From NCBI GenBank assembly GCA_021604825.1, contig BQJS01000062.1:1-22704 (forward strand): DNA of 22,704 nucleotides, written 5' to 3'. A model generated the notes under the pieces. The model was not told where the DNA came from and did no database searches. It was given only the letters and a program-made list of their open reading frames with translations. The DNA comes from Phycisphaerae bacterium (GTDB taxonomy: Bacteria; Planctomycetota; Phycisphaerae; UBA1845). Numbering within the stretch: the stretch's first letter is position 1; each line of letters begins with the position of its first letter. The position numbers and the translations under genes were made by a program. Shown here one piece after another: positions 8,832-17,076 of this stretch.

Positions 8832-11783
8832 ATGGCCGGAAGGAAGATCAATTGGCGCATTTGCGTGCGGGCAACGGGCGAGGAATACGACGCGAAGGGC
8901 CGAGCCACGCTGTCGGAATTGCATCACACAGGCTTTACCGAAATCACTTCTGTTCGAACCACCCGCATCTATGAGCTTTGCGGTTCTCTTTCTCGTGAAC
9001 AGATTCAAGTTCTTTGTGATCGGTTGCTTGTCGATCCGGCGATTGAATTCGGTTCAATCGAGAGCGTGATCGATTGGCCCGACTCGAACACGGCGCAGGT
9101 CGAAGTGCATTGCCAACCGGGCGTGATGGACCCTGTAGCGCTCAGCGCTATCGATGCGGCCAACGATTTGCTTTACGCCAATGATCCGACCGTTAACAAA
9201 CCGGTCGAGTCGATTCAAACTGCATGGCAATACGAAATCGCGGGAGTAGACTGCATTGACCGCATTGAAGCGATGGCCGAAAGCGTGCTGGCCAACGATT
9301 GCGTGGAACGCGTCTTCATCAAAGCGCTGGACCGCTGCGATGCGTTACCGACCGAATTCGCCATCGCGCCGGTTGCCGATTTTAATTTGTTGACGGTCGA
9401 TCTCGCAGGCAAAGATGAAGATGCCCTCATCCGTATCTCTAAACAAGGGCGGTTGTTTCTCAATGCCTTGGAAATGAAGGCGATCCAGCAGCATTATCAT
9501 TTGCTCGACCGCAACCCAACCGACATCGAATTGGAAACCATCGCCCAAACCTGGTCGGAACACTGCGTGCATAAGACGCTCAAGAGCGCGGTTCAATATC
9601 GTGGCCGACCGTTCGGAAACGAAAGTCGCGAATCCATTGAGTGCGAGCGATCCTACGACAACCTGCTCGTCGATACGATTGTCAAAGCCACCCGCGATTT
9701 GGATTGCGATTGGTGCCTGTCGGTGTTTGAAGATAATGCCGGCGTCGTTGCGTTCGATGATGACAACGGCATCGCGTTCAAGGTTGAGACTCACAATCAT
9801 CCGTCCGCAATTGAACCATACGGTGGAGCTGCGACGGGTGTGGGTGGATGCGTTCGCGATATTCTCGGGTGCGGACTGGGCGCGAAGCCGATCGCCAATA
9901 CGGATGTGTTCTGCGTTGCCGAACCGGGCTGGGATTCTGCAAGATTGCCGGCTGGCGTGCTGCACCCACGGCGGATCTTGCGCGGTATCATTGGCGGCGT
10001 TCGGGATTACGGCAATCGTATGGGTATTCCCACGGTCGCGGGTGGACTGCGGTTTGACGAACGATACCTAACCAACCCGTTGGTGTTCGTAGGGTCGGTC
10101 GGGATCATTCCGCGAAAGCACATCGCCAAAGCGCCGAAACCCGGTGACCGAATCGTGGTGGCTGGCGGTCGTACGGGGCGCGATGGCATCGGTGGGGCGA
10201 CGTTTTCATCCGGCGAGTTGACCGACACGCACGCCGACGAATTCGCTCATGCGGTTCAGATTGGCAATGCGATCGAAGAAAAGAAAGTGCTCGATGCGTT
10301 GCTGCGGGCCCGCGATCACGAAAGCGGTTGCCTGTACTCAGCCGTCACCGATTGCGGCGCGGGCGGACTCAGTAGCGCGGTTGGTGAGATGGCCGAACAC
10401 CTCGGCGCGACGGTTCAACTCGAGAACGTTCCGCTGAAGTATTCCGGTTTGCGTTACAACGAAATCTGGCTGTCCGAAGCGCAGGAGCGGATGGTCTTTT
10501 CGGTCCCGCCCGACAAGTTGGAAACGCTGCGAGCCGTGTTCGAACGCGAAGGCGTCGAGGTGGCTGACATCGGCGAGTTCAATGACAGCGGCACGCTTGA
10601 ACTGCATTTCAACGATGAACAGGTCGGGCGACTTGATCTGGATTTCATGCACAACGGGATTCCGCCATTGACGCGGGCGGCGATTTGGAATGGCCCTCCC
10701 GAGAACATCGCGCCGGCAAATCCAACCAGCATTACACCGCAAAACGCCGAGGAGATCATGCTGGCCAAACTCGCGTCGATCGATTCGTGTTCGCGCGAGC
10801 CGATCTTTCGACAGTACGATTTTGAGGTGCAGGGCGGTAGCGTGATCAAACCGCTCGTCGGTGTGGGTGAGGGGCCGTCTGATGCGGCGGTCATCACGCC
10901 AAGGCTTGACTCGAATCGCGGTGTGGCGATCGGCATGGGCATGTGCAGCGATCGCGTCGAACCCGACCCATACTGGATGGCCATCCGGTCGATCGACGAA
11001 GCGATCCGCAACTTGGTATGCGTCGGTGCCGACCCATCGCGCATTGCAATCCTCGATAACTTCTGCTGGGGCGGATGCGCCGATGAAGAAGCCATGGGCG
11101 CACTAGTGCGGGCATGCCAAGGGTGCCACGACGCGGCACTGGCGTACAAGACACCGTTCATCTCCGGCAAGGATTCGCTCAACAATCAGTTCTCGCTGTC
11201 GCCGGATGACGCCGCCCGACTGAAACTGCCGAAGACAATCGCCATTCCGCCGACGCTGCTGATTAGTGGAATCGGACACGTTGAAGATGTACGCCGATGT
11301 GTCACGTCGGATTTGAAAAGAGAAGAAGGTCACTTTGTCGCAGTCGTATTTGATTGGGATTCGCCGGACCTCGAGCGATTTGCGAAAATTCACGCTGCGA
11401 TTGCCGACTTGATTCGTCAAGGTGATGTTCTTGCGTGTCATGATTTTGGCGACGAAGGTATCGCGTGTGCGCTGGCTGAGATGTGCATCGGTGGGAAGGT
11501 GGGAGCTGATCTGTTCTTGCAGGACATTTGCAAAGACACGATGGCGCATCTTTTCGGGGAGCATCATACGGGGTACGTTTTGCAAACTCGCACATCGGCG
11601 GAATCGGACCCCATCCTCGATTTGACTTGGTCCCTCGATCTATGGGGTGGCCTCGATGAAAATCGATTCAGGCTCGACAACCGGGTTCTAGATGGCATCC
11701 TCTTCGACGTTCAACTCACGGACTTGGATCGTGCATGGCGCAGCGGGCTCGCTCGTGATCTAGGAGAACGGGCCGATGGGTAA
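8832..11783 (+). CDS. purL: Phosphoribosylformylglycinamidine synthase, PurL with fused PurS-like domains
   Basis: This encodes 983 residues. The ATG is the first possible start after an in-frame TGA (8823); a GGAG lies about 12 nt upstream. It catalyses the ATP-dependent conversion of FGAR to FGAM, using ammonia from PurQ, in cytoplasmic purine synthesis. Residues 1-78 match the PurS pattern (YDAKGRATLSELHHTGF, then DRLLVDPAIEF). Residues about 83-175 look like a second PurS-like unit (QPGVMDPVALSAIDAANDL, then VLANDCVE). The PurL core follows: TWSEHCVHK near 237, ETHNHPSAIEPYGG near 317, GGRTGRDGIGG near 445, DCGAGGLSSA, and in the second half DNFCWGG and SGKDSLNNQ. Small PurL is about 720-760 residues and the full fusion about 1,290, so this is intermediate: PurS is fused but the glutaminase is separate. 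It overlaps purQ by 8 nt. Confidence 0.95.
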   Translation: MAGRKINWRICVRATGEEYDAKGRATLSELHHTGFTEITSVRTTRIYELCGSLSREQIQVLCDRLLVDPAIEFGSIESVIDWPDSNTAQVEVHCQPGVMDPVALSAIDAANDLLYANDPTVNKPVESIQTAWQYEIAGVDCIDRIEAMAESVLANDCVERVFIKALDRCDALPTEFAIAPVADFNLLTVDLAGKDEDALIRISKQGRLFLNALEMKAIQQHYHLLDRNPTDIELETIAQTWSEHCVHKTLKSAVQYRGRPFGNESRESIECERSYDNLLVDTIVKATRDLDCDWCLSVFEDNAGVVAFDDDNGIAFKVETHNHPSAIEPYGGAATGVGGCVRDILGCGLGAKPIANTDVFCVAEPGWDSARLPAGVLHPRRILRGIIGGVRDYGNRMGIPTVAGGLRFDERYLTNPLVFVGSVGIIPRKHIAKAPKPGDRIVVAGGRTGRDGIGGATFSSGELTDTHADEFAHAVQIGNAIEEKKVLDALLRARDHESGCLYSAVTDCGAGGLSSAVGEMAEHLGATVQLENVPLKYSGLRYNEIWLSEAQERMVFSVPPDKLETLRAVFEREGVEVADIGEFNDSGTLELHFNDEQVGRLDLDFMHNGIPPLTRAAIWNGPPENIAPANPTSITPQNAEEIMLAKLASIDSCSREPIFRQYDFEVQGGSVIKPLVGVGEGPSDAAVITPRLDSNRGVAIGMGMCSDRVEPDPYWMAIRSIDEAIRNLVCVGADPSRIAILDNFCWGGCADEEAMGALVRACQGCHDAALAYKTPFISGKDSLNNQFSLSPDDAARLKLPKTIAIPPTLLISGIGHVEDVRRCVTSDLKREEGHFVAVVFDWDSPDLERFAKIHAAIADLIRQGDVLACHDFGDEGIACALAEMCIGGKVGADLFLQDICKDTMAHLFGEHHTGYVLQTRTSAESDPILDLTWSLDLWGGLDENRFRLDNRVLDGILFDVQLTDLDRAWRSGLARDLGERADG

Positions 11784-12549: not shown

Positions 12550-14301
12550 TTGCCTGCACTTGCTCGATTACATCTTCGGTGTCGTCCATTGTCATGGGCC
12601 TGTTTGCTGACGGGCGCACTGGTCGTATTGCTATTCGGGCCGACGGTTTTCGCGCAGGTTGATGCTGATGCGACTACCGCGGCGACCGTTTCATCGCCCA
12701 TGCAGTACGGTGGGTGGGTGTTGCTTCCGGCGCTGTCTGCGATTGTGCTGGCGATTGTCACACGGCAGGTCATCCCCGCGCTATTCATCGGTACGTTCGT
12801 TGCGGCGATGATGCTTTGTCGAATCTCGCCGGACCATTCCGGTGGGGCGCTTTCGACCGTCATCGACGGAGCAGCCGACGCGATGGCCGTCTACGTCGTC
12901 GGTGCCGTCGCCGACGCCGATCACGCCAAGGTCATGCTCTTCACGCTGATGATCGGCGGGATGGTTGGCGTGGTGAATGCATCGGGCGGGACGCGGGCGA
13001 TGGTCGAAATCATCGCGCGGCGGGCGAAAACGCGCAGGCAAGGGCAATGCACGGTATGGCTGGCTGGGCTCGTCGTTTTCTTCGACGACTACGCCAACAC
13101 CATGATCGTCGGGCCGACCATGCAGCCACTGTTCGATCGCTTGAAAATCTCGCGGGCGAAGCTGGCGTACATCGTCGATTCGACCGCCGCCCCCGTTGCA
13201 TCGATCGCACTCGTGGGCACGTGGGTCGGTGCGGAAATCGGTTACATCGACGGAGCCCTCAAGGACATCGCGAAGACGGGCACGCCGGCATTTCTGTCGT
13301 CGGTCGATGCGTGGGGGGCGTTTCTCAACAGCATTCCATATCGGTTCTATGCCATCCTCGCGCTGGTGATGGTGTTCATCGTCGGTTGGACGGGGCGCGA
13401 CTTCGGTGCGATGCGGCGGCATGAAGCGTTGGCTGCGACGGGCGATGTGATAGAGCATGACGATGCGGACGAGCGGACCGTCGGGCGATTCGATTGGCTG
13501 CTTGCGGCGATACCGGTGCTGCTGCTTGTGGCTGTGACGGGCGTGTTGTTGCTGTATCCCGCGTACACCAAAGCCCGCGCCGATGGCACACCGCTGAGTT
13601 GGAAGACGCTCTTCGACGATGCCGATTCGTACAACGCGATCCTGTTCGGGGCGATGGCCTGTCTAATTGCTGCGATCGCGTTGGCTGTCACGTCGCGTCG
13701 ATCGAAGTTACAGGATGCGGTGGACGGTATGCTTGAAGGCATGTCGCGGATGTTCCCGGCGATCGTGGTGTTGGTGCTGGCGTGGGCGCTGTCGCAATCG
13801 TCGGTGGACTTGAAGGTTGGCGAGGTGGTCAGCGATTGGCTGGTGAGCAAGAACTTCGCGATGCACAATCTGCCGGTGGTCGTGTTCGCATGTGCAGCCG
13901 GCGTCTCGTTCGCGACTGGGACGTCATGGGGCACGATGGGAATCCTTTGCCCAGTTGTAGTAAGAGTCGCCGCAGACATGGGCGCAGACCTGCCAGCCGA
14001 AACAGCCCTGCCACTATTCTACGCCAGCGTAGGAAGCGTACTAGCCGGCGCAATCTTCGGCGACCACTGTTCCCCAATCAGCGACACCACAGTCCTGTCA
14101 TCAGCCGCAAGCGGCTGCAACCTGCAAGACCACGTCTGGACGCAATTGCCCTACGCCCTGGTAACGGCAGCAGTGTCGATGGCCACAGGTGATATCCTCT
14201 GCGCAAGAATGCAACTGTCGCCGTGGCTGGGAATTGCCTTTGGTATATTCATCCTGGCAATATTGGTCGCAACGCTAGGCAGAAAAACAATCAAATCGTA
14301 G
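12550..14301 (+). CDS. NhaC-family Na+/H+ antiporter
   Basis: This encodes 583 residues. The start is TTG: GGGAG lies 8 nt upstream, and starting at the next good Met (12700) would discard a clear signal-peptide-like N-terminus ending in TVFAQ. After it come about 11-12 hydrophobic segments. Family signatures are FFDDYANTMIVGPTMQPL (about 177-194), GTSWGTMGIL (about 457) and FGDHCSPISDTT (about 503). NhaC-family inner-membrane transporters exchange sodium (some members amino acids or malate/lactate) for protons; the substrate here is not known. From about 13943 to the end codon usage changes sharply to A/C-ending codons. The three Arg codons in that part are all AGA, while none of the 22 earlier Arg codons is. 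The stop codon lies inside the first copy of the GTAGGG repeat. Confidence 0.9.
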   Translation: MPALARLHLRCRPLSWACLLTGALVVLLFGPTVFAQVDADATTAATVSSPMQYGGWVLLPALSAIVLAIVTRQVIPALFIGTFVAAMMLCRISPDHSGGALSTVIDGAADAMAVYVVGAVADADHAKVMLFTLMIGGMVGVVNASGGTRAMVEIIARRAKTRRQGQCTVWLAGLVVFFDDYANTMIVGPTMQPLFDRLKISRAKLAYIVDSTAAPVASIALVGTWVGAEIGYIDGALKDIAKTGTPAFLSSVDAWGAFLNSIPYRFYAILALVMVFIVGWTGRDFGAMRRHEALAATGDVIEHDDADERTVGRFDWLLAAIPVLLLVAVTGVLLLYPAYTKARADGTPLSWKTLFDDADSYNAILFGAMACLIAAIALAVTSRRSKLQDAVDGMLEGMSRMFPAIVVLVLAWALSQSSVDLKVGEVVSDWLVSKNFAMHNLPVVVFACAAGVSFATGTSWGTMGILCPVVVRVAADMGADLPAETALPLFYASVGSVLAGAIFGDHCSPISDTTVLSSAASGCNLQDHVWTQLPYALVTAAVSMATGDILCARMQLSPWLGIAFGIFILAILVATLGRKTIKS

Positions 14302-14319
14302 GGTGAGGCTTGCCGCACC
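14297..14319 (+). repeat. GTAGGG palindromic repeat, copy A
   Basis: The copy begins CGTAGGG and continues GGTGAGGC-TT-GCCGCACC, an 8-bp hairpin with one A/G mismatch. Its first bases form the TAG stop of the antiporter gene. It points the opposite way to copy B, 516 bp downstream, so the two bracket the small orphan gene. Confidence 0.75.
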
Positions 14320-14334
14320 TGCTAGCCAAGGCCA

Positions 14335-14814
14335 ATGATGCCAATGTTCAAGAAGCTAAAAGTAACGAGAATTGAAGACGAAGATCCAAGCAGTTTCTCT
14401 AGTGAATCGAACCGCATTCACCTGAGTGATGGCAAGTCACCAGATGAACACTGGATTGTGAAAGATGCATCGCCTGTGATTCTGATCTCTAATGAAAAGT
14501 ATGGACTTGCGCCTCAATGCTATCAGTTGTCCGACCAACTGTATGGCGTCGGTGTGAACGAAAGATTCTTTTTGGTCGAACGCGGAGAGATTCGGACTGA
14601 TTCGAAGTTGCCCTGCCGGTTTTATGAACTGATTCACGTTCAAGAGCCTTACATGGTTATCCACCACGAAACTGGCTTCATTTGTTTGACTTTCGATGGG
14701 GATGCACATTGGGACAAGGGTGGCGACTTGATCCAAGACTGGCGTATTGAAGGTGATCGATTGTTGTTTGAGACTTGGGGTGGGAAGAAGATGTCTGTAC
14801 GGCTACCTCGTTAA
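14335..14814 (+). CDS. Hypothetical protein bracketed by repeats
   Basis: This encodes 159 residues. ATG codons at 14335, 14338 and 14344 are all possible; AAGG at 14328-14331 best suits 14338. There is no signal peptide or membrane segment. The sequence is rich in charged and aromatic residues, with DDEHWIVKD-like strands and an end reading DWRIEGDRLLFETWGG, suggesting a small beta-rich cytoplasmic protein. I recognise no family. Codon usage is more A/T-rich than in purL or the transporters (for example AAGCTAAAAGTAACGAGAAT near the start), which hints at a different origin. Inverted copies of the GTAGGG repeat lie immediately on both sides. An immunity, regulatory or cargo role is possible, but nothing shows it. 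Confidence 0.65.
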   Translation: MMPMFKKLKVTRIEDEDPSSFSSESNRIHLSDGKSPDEHWIVKDASPVILISNEKYGLAPQCYQLSDQLYGVGVNERFFLVERGEIRTDSKLPCRFYELIHVQEPYMVIHHETGFICLTFDGDAHWDKGGDLIQDWRIEGDRLLFETWGGKKMSVRLPR

Positions 14815-14818
14815 GGGC

Positions 14819-14878
14819 TGACTCATACGGTTATCCGGTGCGGCGAGCCGCACCCTACTACAGGGATTACATGAGTCA
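14819..14878. terminator. Nested hairpin between convergent genes, possible bidirectional terminator
   Basis: TGACTCAT (14819-14826) and ATGAGTCA (14871-14878) form a perfect 8-bp outer inverted repeat around repeat copy B, whose own 8-bp stem lies at 14837-14854. The structure starts 4 nt after the stop of the plus-strand orphan gene, and its right arm contains the stop of the minus-strand broken gene. Its position between convergent genes suggests that it ends transcription both ways. No U-run is present, so the role is inference. Confidence 0.4.
14835..14858 (-). repeat. GTAGGG palindromic repeat, copy B
   Basis: On the plus strand this reads CC, then GGTGCGGC-GA-GCCGCACC (perfect 8-bp stem at 14837-14844 and 14847-14854), then CTAC. 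It is identical to copy D over about 26 nt, including the flanking ATCC, and lies in the reverse direction to copy A. Confidence 0.85.
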
Positions 14879-15206
14879 TGGAATTCCCGGGGTACGCTCA
14901 TCCGGAGTTTCGTCCCATAGAATAAGAGACAGGCAATTTTCCGTTTTGAGAGCCATTTCGTCCAATTGCTCTTTCTTGCCCTCAATGTACGCGGCTGATT
15001 CTCGAATGGAGTTAGAGATACTGTGCAGTGTCCGCAGAAGAGACTTGCTCTTGTCCCTTGAGGAGTTTGGTCAATTCTTGAGCATGCGTGTGCACGCGTT
15101 CAAACCATTCCTCTTTGACTTTGTGGTTGCTTTGCAATTGATCCAGGAAATCAAAGGCCGCCTTTTCAAGCAACTCCGACTGGTATTTGATCTGTTCTTC
15201 TCGCAT
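14876..15206 (-). pseudogene. Frameshifted gene for a coiled-coil-like hypothetical protein
   Basis: On the minus strand, ATG 15206 opens a frame beginning MREEQIKYQSELLEKAAFD. It runs through FERVHTHAQELTKLLKG and stops early at 15012 after an unlikely tail, QEQVSSADTAQYL. Skipping one base in the GGG at 15055-15057 gives a smooth continuation: DKSKSLLRTLHSISNSI, ESAAYIEGKKEQLDEMALK, ENCLSLILWDETPDERTPGIP, with its stop at 14876-14878. The restored protein would be about 110 residues, mostly helical and charged. The frame also stays open upstream toward repeat copy C, so the true N-terminus is uncertain. I recognise no family. It could be a decayed gene, a sequencing error or, less likely, a programmed frameshift. 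Confidence 0.6.
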
Positions 15207-15281
15207 GGCTCGCTCGAATCGCGCATGGGCGATATTTCTGCATCTAGATCGAATCGACGATCCAACCTCAATCTTGTGAAT

Positions 15282-15304
15282 CGTAGGGTTCGGTTTGCCG
15301 CAAC
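15282..15304 (+). repeat. GTAGGG palindromic repeat, copy C (degenerate)
   Basis: The copy begins CGTAGGG and continues TTCGGTTTGCCGCAAC. The inner stem is degenerate compared with copies B and D. It faces copy D across a 23-nt spacer, forming a REPIN-like doublet at 15282-15352. Confidence 0.7.
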
Positions 15305-15327
15305 TGTTACATGCCCTAACAAATAAT

Positions 15328-15352
15328 CCGGTGCGGCGAGCCGCACCCTACG
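15328..15352 (-). repeat. GTAGGG palindromic repeat, copy D
   Basis: On the plus strand this reads CC, GGTGCGGC-GA-GCCGCACC (perfect 8-bp stem), then CTACG. It ends one base before the stop codon of the minus-strand hydrolase gene (TAA, 15356-15354). It matches copy B exactly in the core and is inverted relative to copy C. Confidence 0.85.
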
Positions 15353-15353
15353 T

Positions 15354-16202
15354 TTAGATTGATTTTGTTTTTGGGTCGCCCACCCACGCAACCAAATCCT
15401 TCAAAAACTCCTCCCGCTGCGGGCCGAACTCTAGCGTGTGGCGGGATTTATCGTAGGTGCTGATTCTGGTGTTTGGCCAGTTGAGCGACCTTATCAATTC
15501 TCTTGAGCGTTCGTTGTCGATGATTCTTTCGTCGCCGGCCAGGAACATTTGGAGGGGGACTGGTGGGGCTTTGGTGATTTTGGCTACCACTTTGTCCATC
15601 CTTCTTGACGCGAGGTAGAAGCCAGCCGTTGCCTGGTGCAGTTGGATCGGGTCGTTCTTCAGGTACTCGATGTACTTGGGTTGATCGGTGAAGAGTTCCG
15701 GGTCGTTCAGCGGGATGTCGTACGAGCGGGTTGGTTCGGAGATCATCGAGAAGCCGATGCGGAATTTTTCTGCGTTGGACACTGAGATGATCGGGTAGAT
15801 GCCCGGGGCGATCAGCGACAAACTGGCGAAACGCTTTGGGGCGGTCACGTGCATCGCAGCCGCTAACTTGCCACCCCAACTGACGCCGATCAAATGAATG
15901 CGCTCGGTGCCGGAAACTTCGGCTAAATGGCGGGCGTAATTCAATCCGTCTTCGATCAACTGCGGTGACGAATCGGCGTGGCCACGAGCCTGTGAGTTTT
16001 GTCCCGACCCGCGACGATCGGGTTGCAAAACGGCGTATCCGGCATCGTTGAGCGCCTTCGCCGTCATCTCGTACCAGCCGGCGTGCGATTGAATTCCGTG
16101 CAAATGCAGCACCGCGTCGGAGCAGCCGGGTTGCGGCCAATAGCGCGCGTACGCTTCGTAACCGTCTTCGAGCCGGATGTGCGTTTCCTCAAACGAAGGC
16201 AT
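15354..16202 (-). CDS. Alpha/beta hydrolase, monoacylglycerol lipase / lysophospholipase-like
   Basis: This encodes 282 residues and shows the Hydrolase_4 (serine aminopeptidase S33-like) pattern. There is an oxyanion-region HLHGIQSH near 33-40, PDRRGSG at 61-67, the nucleophile elbow GVSWG (S108), a probable catalytic Asp in AGDERIID (D224) and a catalytic His in SRHTLEFG (H255). The length is normal for the family. No signal peptide is present, so it is probably cytoplasmic. It likely cleaves an ester such as a monoacylglycerol or lysophospholipid; the substrate is not known. The gene runs opposite to its neighbours on both sides. No Shine-Dalgarno sequence precedes its ATG, but a good promoter ends 6 nt before it, which suggests a leaderless mRNA. 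Confidence 0.85.
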   Translation of the reverse strand: MPSFEETHIRLEDGYEAYARYWPQPGCSDAVLHLHGIQSHAGWYEMTAKALNDAGYAVLQPDRRGSGQNSQARGHADSSPQLIEDGLNYARHLAEVSGTERIHLIGVSWGGKLAAAMHVTAPKRFASLSLIAPGIYPIISVSNAEKFRIGFSMISEPTRSYDIPLNDPELFTDQPKYIEYLKNDPIQLHQATAGFYLASRRMDKVVAKITKAPPVPLQMFLAGDERIIDNERSRELIRSLNWPNTRISTYDKSRHTLEFGPQREEFLKDLVAWVGDPKTKSI

Positions 16203-16208
16203 CGGGGT

Positions 16209-16237
16209 ATATTAAGGCAATTCCGCGACCGTGTTAA
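16209..16237 (-). promoter_or_regulatory. Candidate leaderless promoter of the alpha/beta hydrolase gene
   Basis: On the minus strand, TTAACA (16237-16232, 5 of 6 to TTGACA), a 17-bp spacer and TAATAT (16214-16209, 4 of 6) are followed by six bases, ACCCCG, and then the ATG. Transcription should begin at or next to the A of ATG. The absence of a ribosome binding site agrees with leaderless translation. The large E/F hairpin begins 10 bp upstream of the -35 box. Confidence 0.5.
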
Positions 16238-16246
16238 ATCGCGCGC

Positions 16247-16268
16247 CGTAGGGTGGGCCGTACCCACC
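16247..16268 (+). repeat. GTAGGG palindromic repeat, copy E
   Basis: The copy begins CGTAGGG and continues TGGGCCGTACCCACC. It differs from the reverse complement of copy F at one base. Together, 22-bp arms around a 22-nt spacer (16247-16312) can form a long hairpin between two divergent genes. The inner palindrome (GGTGGG/CCCACC) differs from that of copies B and D, but the GTAGGG edge is shared. Confidence 0.85.
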
Positions 16269-16290
16269 GCCGTTTAAATTTCAAAGACTT

Positions 16291-16312
16291 GGTGGGCACG
16301 GCCCACCCTACG
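16291..16312 (-). repeat. GTAGGG palindromic repeat, copy F
   Basis: On the plus strand this reads GGTGGGC-ACG-GCCCACC (7-bp stem) followed by CTACG. It is the inverted partner of copy E. It ends 17 nt before the ATG of the uracil-DNA glycosylase gene, so the hairpin lies in or next to that gene's leader or promoter. Confidence 0.85.
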
Positions 16313-16329: not shown

Positions 16330-17076
16330 ATGCAGACTCGACGCATCAAACGATTATTGGAAGCCGACCGATTGTTTGGCATGACGAGCGTGCCGAAACC
16401 TTCGGCGCTGCGCGATGTGGTTGACGGTGGCGCGGCAGGGGTTGGCGTTTCGTCGGTTGGCGTGGTTTCAGTTGAATCGAAACGCACTCAGCTTGACGTG
16501 CTTGATCGCGAACAGGTGAAGGGTTGCGAGAAGTGTCGCCTTTGCGAGGGGCGGACGAATACGGTGTTTGGCGATGGCGACGCCGATGCACGGTTAATGT
16601 TCATCGGTGAGGGGCCGGGCTTTGATGAAGACAAGCAGGGTATTCCGTTTGTCGGGCGGGCTGGCCAACTGCTTAACAAGATGATCGTGGCGATGGGGTT
16701 GCAGCGCGAGCAGGTTTACATTTGCAACATCGTCAAATGTCGCCCGCCGAACAACCGCGACCCAGCGGCTGACGAGGTGTTCGCGTGTACGCCGTATCTG
16801 CATGAGCAAGTGAAGATTATCGAGCCCGAGGTGATCGTGGCGCTGGGTGCTCCTGCGTCGAAGATGTTGCTCGATACGCAATCTGGGATCGGCAAGTTGC
16901 GCGGGCGGTTCCACGATTATCATTACACGAATCTGTCCGGCGAGACGGCGAGCATTTCGTTGATGCCGACATATCACCCGGCGTATCTGCTGCGAAGCCC
17001 GCACGAGAAGAAGAAGACGTGGGATGATTTGCAGATGGTGATGAAACTGCTGGGGCTGTCGCGTCCGCAGCGATGA
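16330..17076 (+). CDS. Uracil-DNA glycosylase, family 4 (iron-sulfur type)
   Basis: This encodes 248 residues. It removes uracil from DNA to start base excision repair. Residues 66-75 ([10 protein letters not shown]) and 137-153 ([10 protein letters not shown], then C153) supply the four Cys of the [4Fe-4S] cluster as C66, C69, C137 and C153; the 16-residue gap between the last two fits the family. Motif 1 is [20 protein letters not shown] (93-112) and motif 2 is [11 protein letters not shown] (214-224). About 55 residues precede the first Cys: a basic helix ([14 protein letters not shown]) and a low-complexity Gly/Val/Ser linker, which the short thermophilic members lack. No Shine-Dalgarno sequence is visible before the ATG, and the E/F repeat hairpin lies just upstream. 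Confidence 0.92.

Follow-up and report, generated by a model that had tools for sequence, protein, structure and literature searches.

A REP family that may border single-gene turnover in relatives of a Phycisphaerae contig

We analysed a 22.7-kb Phycisphaerae contig (the window, here always the whole stretch of 22,704 nt) that carries six short palindromes, named A to F. These are very probably repetitive extragenic palindromic sequences (REPs) of two co-resident GTAG families, dispersed as inverted doublets (REP doublets forming hairpins, REPINs) by REP-associated tyrosine transposases (RAYTs; TnpA-REP, HUH/Y1). In the relatives compared, sites of one REP family, type I, seem to coincide with gene-content breakpoints more often than matched gaps do. 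Our tentative reading is that one RAYT-linked family (type I, perhaps also types III-V) may act as a cassette boundary, at which single and often orphan genes are inserted or replaced and REPIN interiors exchanged while the REPs stay, and that the most abundant family, type II, spreads without this effect; one relative's RAYT may itself travel, or have travelled, with two passenger genes between the same REPs.

All genome-wide counts come from relatives. The closest by PurL are four assemblies at 77-82% over residues 1-983, the remaining 76 PurL loci among the matches listed reaching at most 57%. We refer to the four as G001 (the L001 assembly, to which L246 also belongs), G002 (L002), G003 (L003) and G004 (L022); three of them are titled Phycisphaerae or Phycisphaerales. 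L002 (JANQQE010000007.1) is titled Alphaproteobacteria, and since its PurL (77%) and gene order match those of the Phycisphaerae relatives, it is probably a mislabelled assembly. The REPs and REPINs of the window are as follows.

14297..14319, forward strand: REP A, type I, 1 mismatch, inner flank TGCTA
14837..14858, reverse strand: REP B, type I, exact, inner flank GGAT
15282..15304, forward strand: REP C, type I, 2 mismatches, inner flank TGTTA
15330..15352, reverse strand: REP D, type I, exact, one base from the hydrolase stop codon
15282..15352, no strand: REPIN C/D, 71 nt with a 25-nt spacer
16247..16268, forward strand: REP E, type II, 1 mismatch
16291..16312, reverse strand: REP F, type II, exact
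16247..16312, no strand: REPIN E/F, 66 nt, between the divergent hydrolase and uracil-DNA glycosylase genes

All six copies fit the consensus of their type at 0-2 mismatches, with GTAG directly before an imperfect palindrome. The type I REP is GTAGGGTGCGGCTTGCCGCACC, the mismatches of A to D being scored against GTAGGGTGCGGYTYRCCGCACC, and the type II REP is GTAGGGTGGGCCGTGCCCACC. A fuzzy REP scan of the window returned exactly these six, and the reversed consensus none. The window has five cases of GTAGGGT with a hairpin (at most 1 mismatch) immediately behind it (A, B, D, E and F; the stem of C is too decayed to count), and 300 dinucleotide-preserving shuffles of it have none. Because this pattern was absent from all 300 shuffles and the reversed consensus gave no hit, the six palindromes are not due to chance. 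Two more GTAGGGT words (10089, forward; 5696, reverse) have no hairpin, and a lone CGTAGGGT at 10088-10095 inside purL, also without one, is probably a chance occurrence. When folded as single-stranded DNA and compared with shuffles, C/D (z = -4.97) and E/F (z = -6.68) form long hairpins; REP A and REP C folded singly do no better than shuffles (z = -0.58 and -0.97).

A preliminary description of the window, made from its letters alone, had placed six palindromes in three inward-facing pairs at these positions, and all were found. B and D are indeed identical across 26 nt, and E and F differ at one base, as it had said, their arms being 95% (21/22) complementary. Its spacer of 22 nt for E/F agrees with ours, and its 23 nt for C/D and 516 nt for A/B become 25 and 517 nt when measured between the 22/21-nt REP units. 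The shared edge CGTAGGGT that it had assigned to B is not there, B having AGTAGGGT instead. The short, uniform spacing of an inverted doublet is seen in C/D and E/F and not in A/B. A and B bear both inner ends usual for a type I REPIN (TGYTA and GGAT), yet enclose a gene. The preliminary description had recognised A/B as an inward pair with a long spacer and had missed both that this spacer holds a gene and that A to D flank a gene-content breakpoint.

It had further named what would speak against a dispersed family, namely a few copies only, a local duplication as their source and no Y1 transposase. None of this applies to the closest relatives, in which we found RAYTs, described below, and 229, 30, 187 and 247 copies of the pattern GTAGGGTGSN{6,10}SCACC in G001, G002, G003 and G004, the pattern read backwards giving 0. 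The forward pattern is present in 45 of 60 relatives, in many of which there are only few copies, near the control counts of 0-3. The first 1.2 Mb of one G004 contig (G004:C30:1-1,200,000) hold 151 REPs of four types (II, 90; III, 24; IV, 23; I, 14), and all 62 of its neighbour pairs spaced 15-80 nt apart face inward, 61 with arms of the same type and 1 mixed. Exact type I copies number 25, 5, 20, 16 and 17 in G001, G002, G003, G004 and G011, and 21 in G026. At the site matching E/F, both type II arms are found in L022 and the first arm in L003, where the sequence stretch ends. REP heads lie at most 30 nt past a stop codon in 122 of 250 copies, and near a start in 17.

Some doublets are hybrids, with arms of different REP types at regular spacing (L266 and L268 in G011, type I with V; and in G052 a GCATC with a GCGTC type), which suggests that two REP types can be moved together. 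A 193-nt unit bounded by type I REPs (149-nt interior), resembling a REPIN of greater length, is repeated within 3 kb at L364 (G026:C273); two copies are complete and about 93% alike, and the contig end truncates a third. At G004:C30:417320-419350 and G003:C7:31600-36500 small genes are strung together, several having a same-orientation REP behind them, and the REPs in these stretches mostly differ in type between the two genomes (IV vs I).

RAYTs accompany these REPs. PF01797 matches were found in all ten relatives searched. One RAYT each in G003 and G004 lies between exact inward type II REPs, as does one in G052; G003 and G004 have another beside or between type III REPs (GTAGGGTCCGCTGTGCGGACC), and G004 a third beside a type IV REP. 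A 2.6-kb unit of G026 consists of a RAYT gene, a 417-aa gene that has no Pfam match and a SnoaL-like gene, bounded by inward-facing exact copies of the type I REP. The five RAYTs tested (from G003, G004 and G026) all passed NF047646 with 179-187 bits (cut-off 80), and the type II RAYT of G004, used as query, matched 65 of 100 relatives at E <= 1e-10. A GTAG hairpin adjoins 24 of 28 newly fetched RAYT loci, in a scan that ran without a control. A tree was built from 32 RAYTs: its six rows with GGTCCGC (type III-like) fell into a single supported clade, and the three type II rows grouped with weaker support; L355, flanked by one exact type II REP, yielded no open reading frame (ORF) and was left out. 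L358, with a type II stem and another loop, fell in the other RAYT clade, which speaks against a strict one-to-one match. RAYT clades follow REP type in part. At L166 (G003:C126) a divergent Y1 transposase gene, itself without flanking REPs, has a type I REPIN about 0.8 kb away.

The preliminary description had proposed a REPIN-like family moved by a RAYT, and the RAYTs lying between inward copies of the same REP (type II, and type I in G026) support this in the relatives. TnpA-REP recognises and cuts single-stranded GTAG hairpins (PMC8266576), REPINs have been proposed as the moving unit (PMC3116915), and it is established that each RAYT has its own REP family (PMC6006769). In the window's genome, too, we infer that REPINs are moved by a RAYT, which would act on the GTAG tetranucleotide and hairpin in single-stranded DNA.

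The REPs A to D lie between two conserved neighbours, as listed here with the uracil-DNA glycosylase gene; the window also includes genes for a metallophosphatase, PurL, a PurQ-like protein and a Na+/alanine symporter.

12550..14301, forward strand: Na+/H+ antiporter-family (NhaC) gene (PF03553), conserved left neighbour
14335..14814, forward strand: 159-aa ORF lying between A and B, without Pfam match
14859..15281, reverse strand: B-C interval, an apparently decayed small gene with open stretches in two frames; two overlapping ORFs without Pfam match
15354..16202, reverse strand: alpha/beta hydrolase gene (PF12146), conserved right neighbour
16330..17076, forward strand: uracil-DNA glycosylase gene (PF03167)

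The TAG stop codon of the antiporter gene (14299-14301) is the TAG of REP A's GTAG head, and a type I REP stands at the 3' end of this gene in all five assemblies (window, L002, L003, L022 and L246 of G001). In the relatives, too, some REPs overlap stop codons of called genes. Up to REP A the window is colinear with its relatives, short unaligned stretches aside. There the aligned block ends, at 14321 for L003 and 14325 for L002, and the next starts beside D, at 15368 and 15366; the homology of L022 runs through the 159-aa ORF to 14779 and restarts at 15364. The second block comprises just 412 nt of the hydrolase gene in L002, and extends further in L003 and L022.

Between REP A and the hydrolase gene the gene set differs among all five assemblies. 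In the window it consists of the 159-aa ORF and the decayed gene. G004 combines an ORF homologous to the 159-aa one with a 317-aa ORF. Three other genes occupy the interval in G003, the first and second of them separated by one degenerate REP (3 mismatches). G001 carries a RidA-like gene together with a gene related to the second one of G003, and G002 a short-chain dehydrogenase. One ORF is thus shared by the window and G004 and one by G001 and G003. A possible REP remnant before the third G003 gene was seen by eye only. G001 and G003 share 93% identity across 295 nt that end with the last base of REP A; immediately beyond it they are unrelated, and their homology returns after the degenerate REP, which is oriented like A.

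The 159-aa ORF has a homologue in 1 of 100 relatives (G004, at the same site, 61% identity) and was therefore rejected as a cargo carried to several sites. Against 5.8 billion proteins it gave two matches, one of them identical and listed without source. The A-B interior has a GC content of 46.6%, compared with 56.1% for the window; as a general mark of enclosed genes low GC gave a mixed picture, with 46.6-55.1% in ten intervals (C30, 54.9%). None of ten proteins scanned from REP-bounded or NhaC-hydrolase intervals, nor the 159-aa ORF, belongs to a transposase family.

We compared eight G003 contigs with G004:C30, leaving out of the count C61, which hardly mapped, and scored REP loci lying 60 nt or less from a boundary at which the two genomes differ in length by 200 nt or more, with RAYT neighbourhoods excluded. 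In G003 and G004, respectively, non-II loci lay at such boundaries in 13 of 20 and 10 of 23 cases (type I, 6/7 and 6/9), type II loci in 0 of 18 and 1 of 26, and control gene 3' ends in 29 of 313 and 29 of 302. As two REPs of one site were sometimes counted apart, we also counted by site: 5 of 6 type I sites in G003 and 4 of 7 in G004 were at boundaries of gene-sized indels. Matched control gaps (free of REPs, at least 60 nt, behind convergent or co-directed genes and measured across the whole gap) contained an indel in 22 of 159 cases (14%, G003) and 19 of 147 (13%, G004). Type I sites differed from these gaps with p = 4.5e-4 (G003) and 0.01 (G004), and from type II loci with p = 1.4e-4 and 3.9e-3, the two values of each pair not being independent since G003 and G004 share most sites. 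None of 16 type II loci common to both genomes had changed in either, so age alone hardly explains the contrast between the types. Genes in this test were called by a simple custom script.

Among other type I sites, one (site 1) is a plain REPIN with a 26-nt spacer in G001, measures 108 nt in G004, and holds a gene within 574 nt in G003; G001 and G003 agree in its REPs down to the loop variants, and the interiors are unrelated. At a second site the sequence in G004 (800 nt) differs from that in G001 (672 nt), where the right-hand REP is of type II. A third is a plain REPIN in G003, REP-gene-REPIN in G004 and REPIN-gene-REPIN in G001. About 15 type I sites have a counterpart in the fetched loci, and six of these were unchanged in the pair compared, as read from alignment ends (L147/L245, L149/L258, L150/L154, L151/L239, L243/L256 and L247/L262); the last differs from G004 at the REP. 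Comparison of interiors like that of A/B found no homology beyond REPs and spacers, short weak matches excepted. A search with the cargo of L141 hit 59 of 60 genomes; the matches form a large zinc-ribbon family and say nothing on movement. Small proteins ending in a CxxCGYDL...CPECG zinc ribbon have at least 39-60 matches in each of G001-G004.

Type I copies could be old landing sites of REPINs whose REPs would later serve as joints for the exchange of single genes. This might proceed by recombination between REPs or by RAYT-driven movement of REP-gene-REP units; we slightly favour recombination, because the REPs stay while interiors change and no REP-gene-REP unit was seen at two places.

A number of results weigh against a role of type I REPs in gene exchange or limit the case for it. 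The breakpoint test comprises about seven independent type I sites. Five of its contigs were chosen for type I loci matching C30, three of which had already been seen to vary; these five are all the C30-matching ones among the 14 type I loci fetched from G003. A test for enrichment at short junctions failed to reach significance under all six settings tried (p 0.097-0.76; best 4/15 vs 6/62). Gene-sized same-type pairs on C30 are not inward in excess (3 inward, one of them the RAYT; 6 tandem, 3 + 3; 4 outward), different-type pairs of this size being 0 inward, 4 tandem and 5 outward. A small replicate (G002:C23 vs C30; G003:C1 vs G004:C2:20001-100000) gave 1 of 2 for type I (p = 0.19; the positive is a site already counted), 0 of 10 for type II, 0 of 1 for type III and 11 of 118 for controls; counted from the other genome of each pair, type I gave 1/1 and 2/4, type III 0/1 and 0/1, type II 0/1, and controls 7/108 and 2/17. 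Against dispersal of the type I copies by a RAYT stands that, on inspection of flanks, searches of G001-G004 with PF01797, and of G001-G004 and G011 with the L102 protein at E <= 1, yielded no RAYT lying between type I REPs.

It is quite possible that gene differences at type I REPs are coincidental, either because both occupy shared permissive gaps or because REPs insert preferentially beside newly arrived genes. Gene-sized indels in REP-free gaps, the short-junction results, the small number of sites and the unchanged type I sites all fit such a coincidence. It has more difficulty with the type II loci of the same genomes, almost none of which lie at indel boundaries, and with REP A, present in five of five assemblies beside differing genes.

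Another explanation is that the REPs are short portable homologies, at which arriving DNA would be attached or exchanged through recombination or annealing between copies. Sharp limits such as that at the last base of REP A between G001 and G003, and site 1, where everything between the same REPs differs, are what this would produce, and some REPs of Escherichia coli O-antigen clusters stand at similarity junctions (PMC3158064). We consider it somewhat doubtful: the more abundant type II REPs show no such effect, and where a diverged spacer follows a conserved REP, an alignment would end at the REP edge in any case. A length of 22 nt is also short for RecA recombination.

We regard it as unlikely that a RAYT moves composite REP-gene-REP units as single-stranded elements, with the genes as cargo of long REPINs. 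The REP-bounded RAYT unit of G026, the repeated 193-nt unit of L364 and the REPIN inner ends of A and B speak for such elements. On the other hand, none of the REP-gene-REP units turned up at a second place (the 159-aa ORF was looked for in 100 genomes; searches for other cargo were not informative), inward gene-sized pairs are not in excess, and at the NhaC site of G001 and G003 the degenerate REP on the right points the same way as A.

That the palindromes are convergent terminators or mRNA stabilisers behind genes, and not mobile, is very improbable, for despite their frequent position just past stop codons and the folding of the pairs they are near-identical 21-22-nt sequences with an unpaired GTAG head, form strictly inward doublets of several types with RAYTs beside them, and include E/F, which lies in a region of divergent promoters; nor does the window have any Rfam match. 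A tRNA scan of it was also empty. REPs could have taken on a regulatory role later.

The proposal that type I copies are boundaries for the exchange or insertion of single genes can be set beside known systems. The REPIN/RAYT system of Pseudomonas fluorescens SBW25 (PMC3116915) is alike in its inverted-doublet hairpins, in singlets as remnants, in RAYTs tied to REP groups and in having several groups per genome; it belongs to another phylum, has other palindromes, and only here does type I mark gene-content breakpoints. The GTAG repeat super-family (PMC3733652) shares the GTAG head followed by a hairpin, the dimers and the frequent position near ORF 3' ends; it comprises 24 families, and the passages on it mention no role in gene exchange. 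The same paper reports GTAG REPs in Planctomycetes, with several families coexisting in R. baltica. In Pseudomonas, the study of REP deserts (PMC3390384) likewise looked at REPs in relation to variable genes, but here one REP type borders them. For the E. coli O-antigen clusters the authors speculate that REPs aid exchange and call for a genome-wide comparison; theirs were few cases in one region without a genome-wide test, and our cases concern single genes and a contrast between types (PMC3158064). REPs are also targets of insertion sequences (PMC7771070), and REPs here likewise appear as places of DNA insertion; the inserts, however, are small ordinary or orphan genes, with no insertion sequence transposase among the ten proteins scanned or in the 159-aa ORF, the G026 unit holding the RAYT itself.

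The NhaC-hydrolase interval has different genes between the same flanking genes in each assembly. Minimal mobile elements of Neisseria are likewise different genes between the same conserved neighbours, and are defined by the flanking genes, not by REPs. In the open-access literature searched, as far as its accessible text goes, we came across no account of genes enclosed by REPINs, nor of gene turnover marked by one type of REP.

In many bacteria few intergenic repeats are as abundant as REPs, and how they affect the genome has long been asked. In our comparison, two families of one genome seem to differ in their relation to gene content, which makes the speculation that REPs aid gene exchange (PMC3158064) testable by counting. 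If our reading is correct, a miniature element would provide a route for the turnover of single genes without integrase, phage or plasmid.

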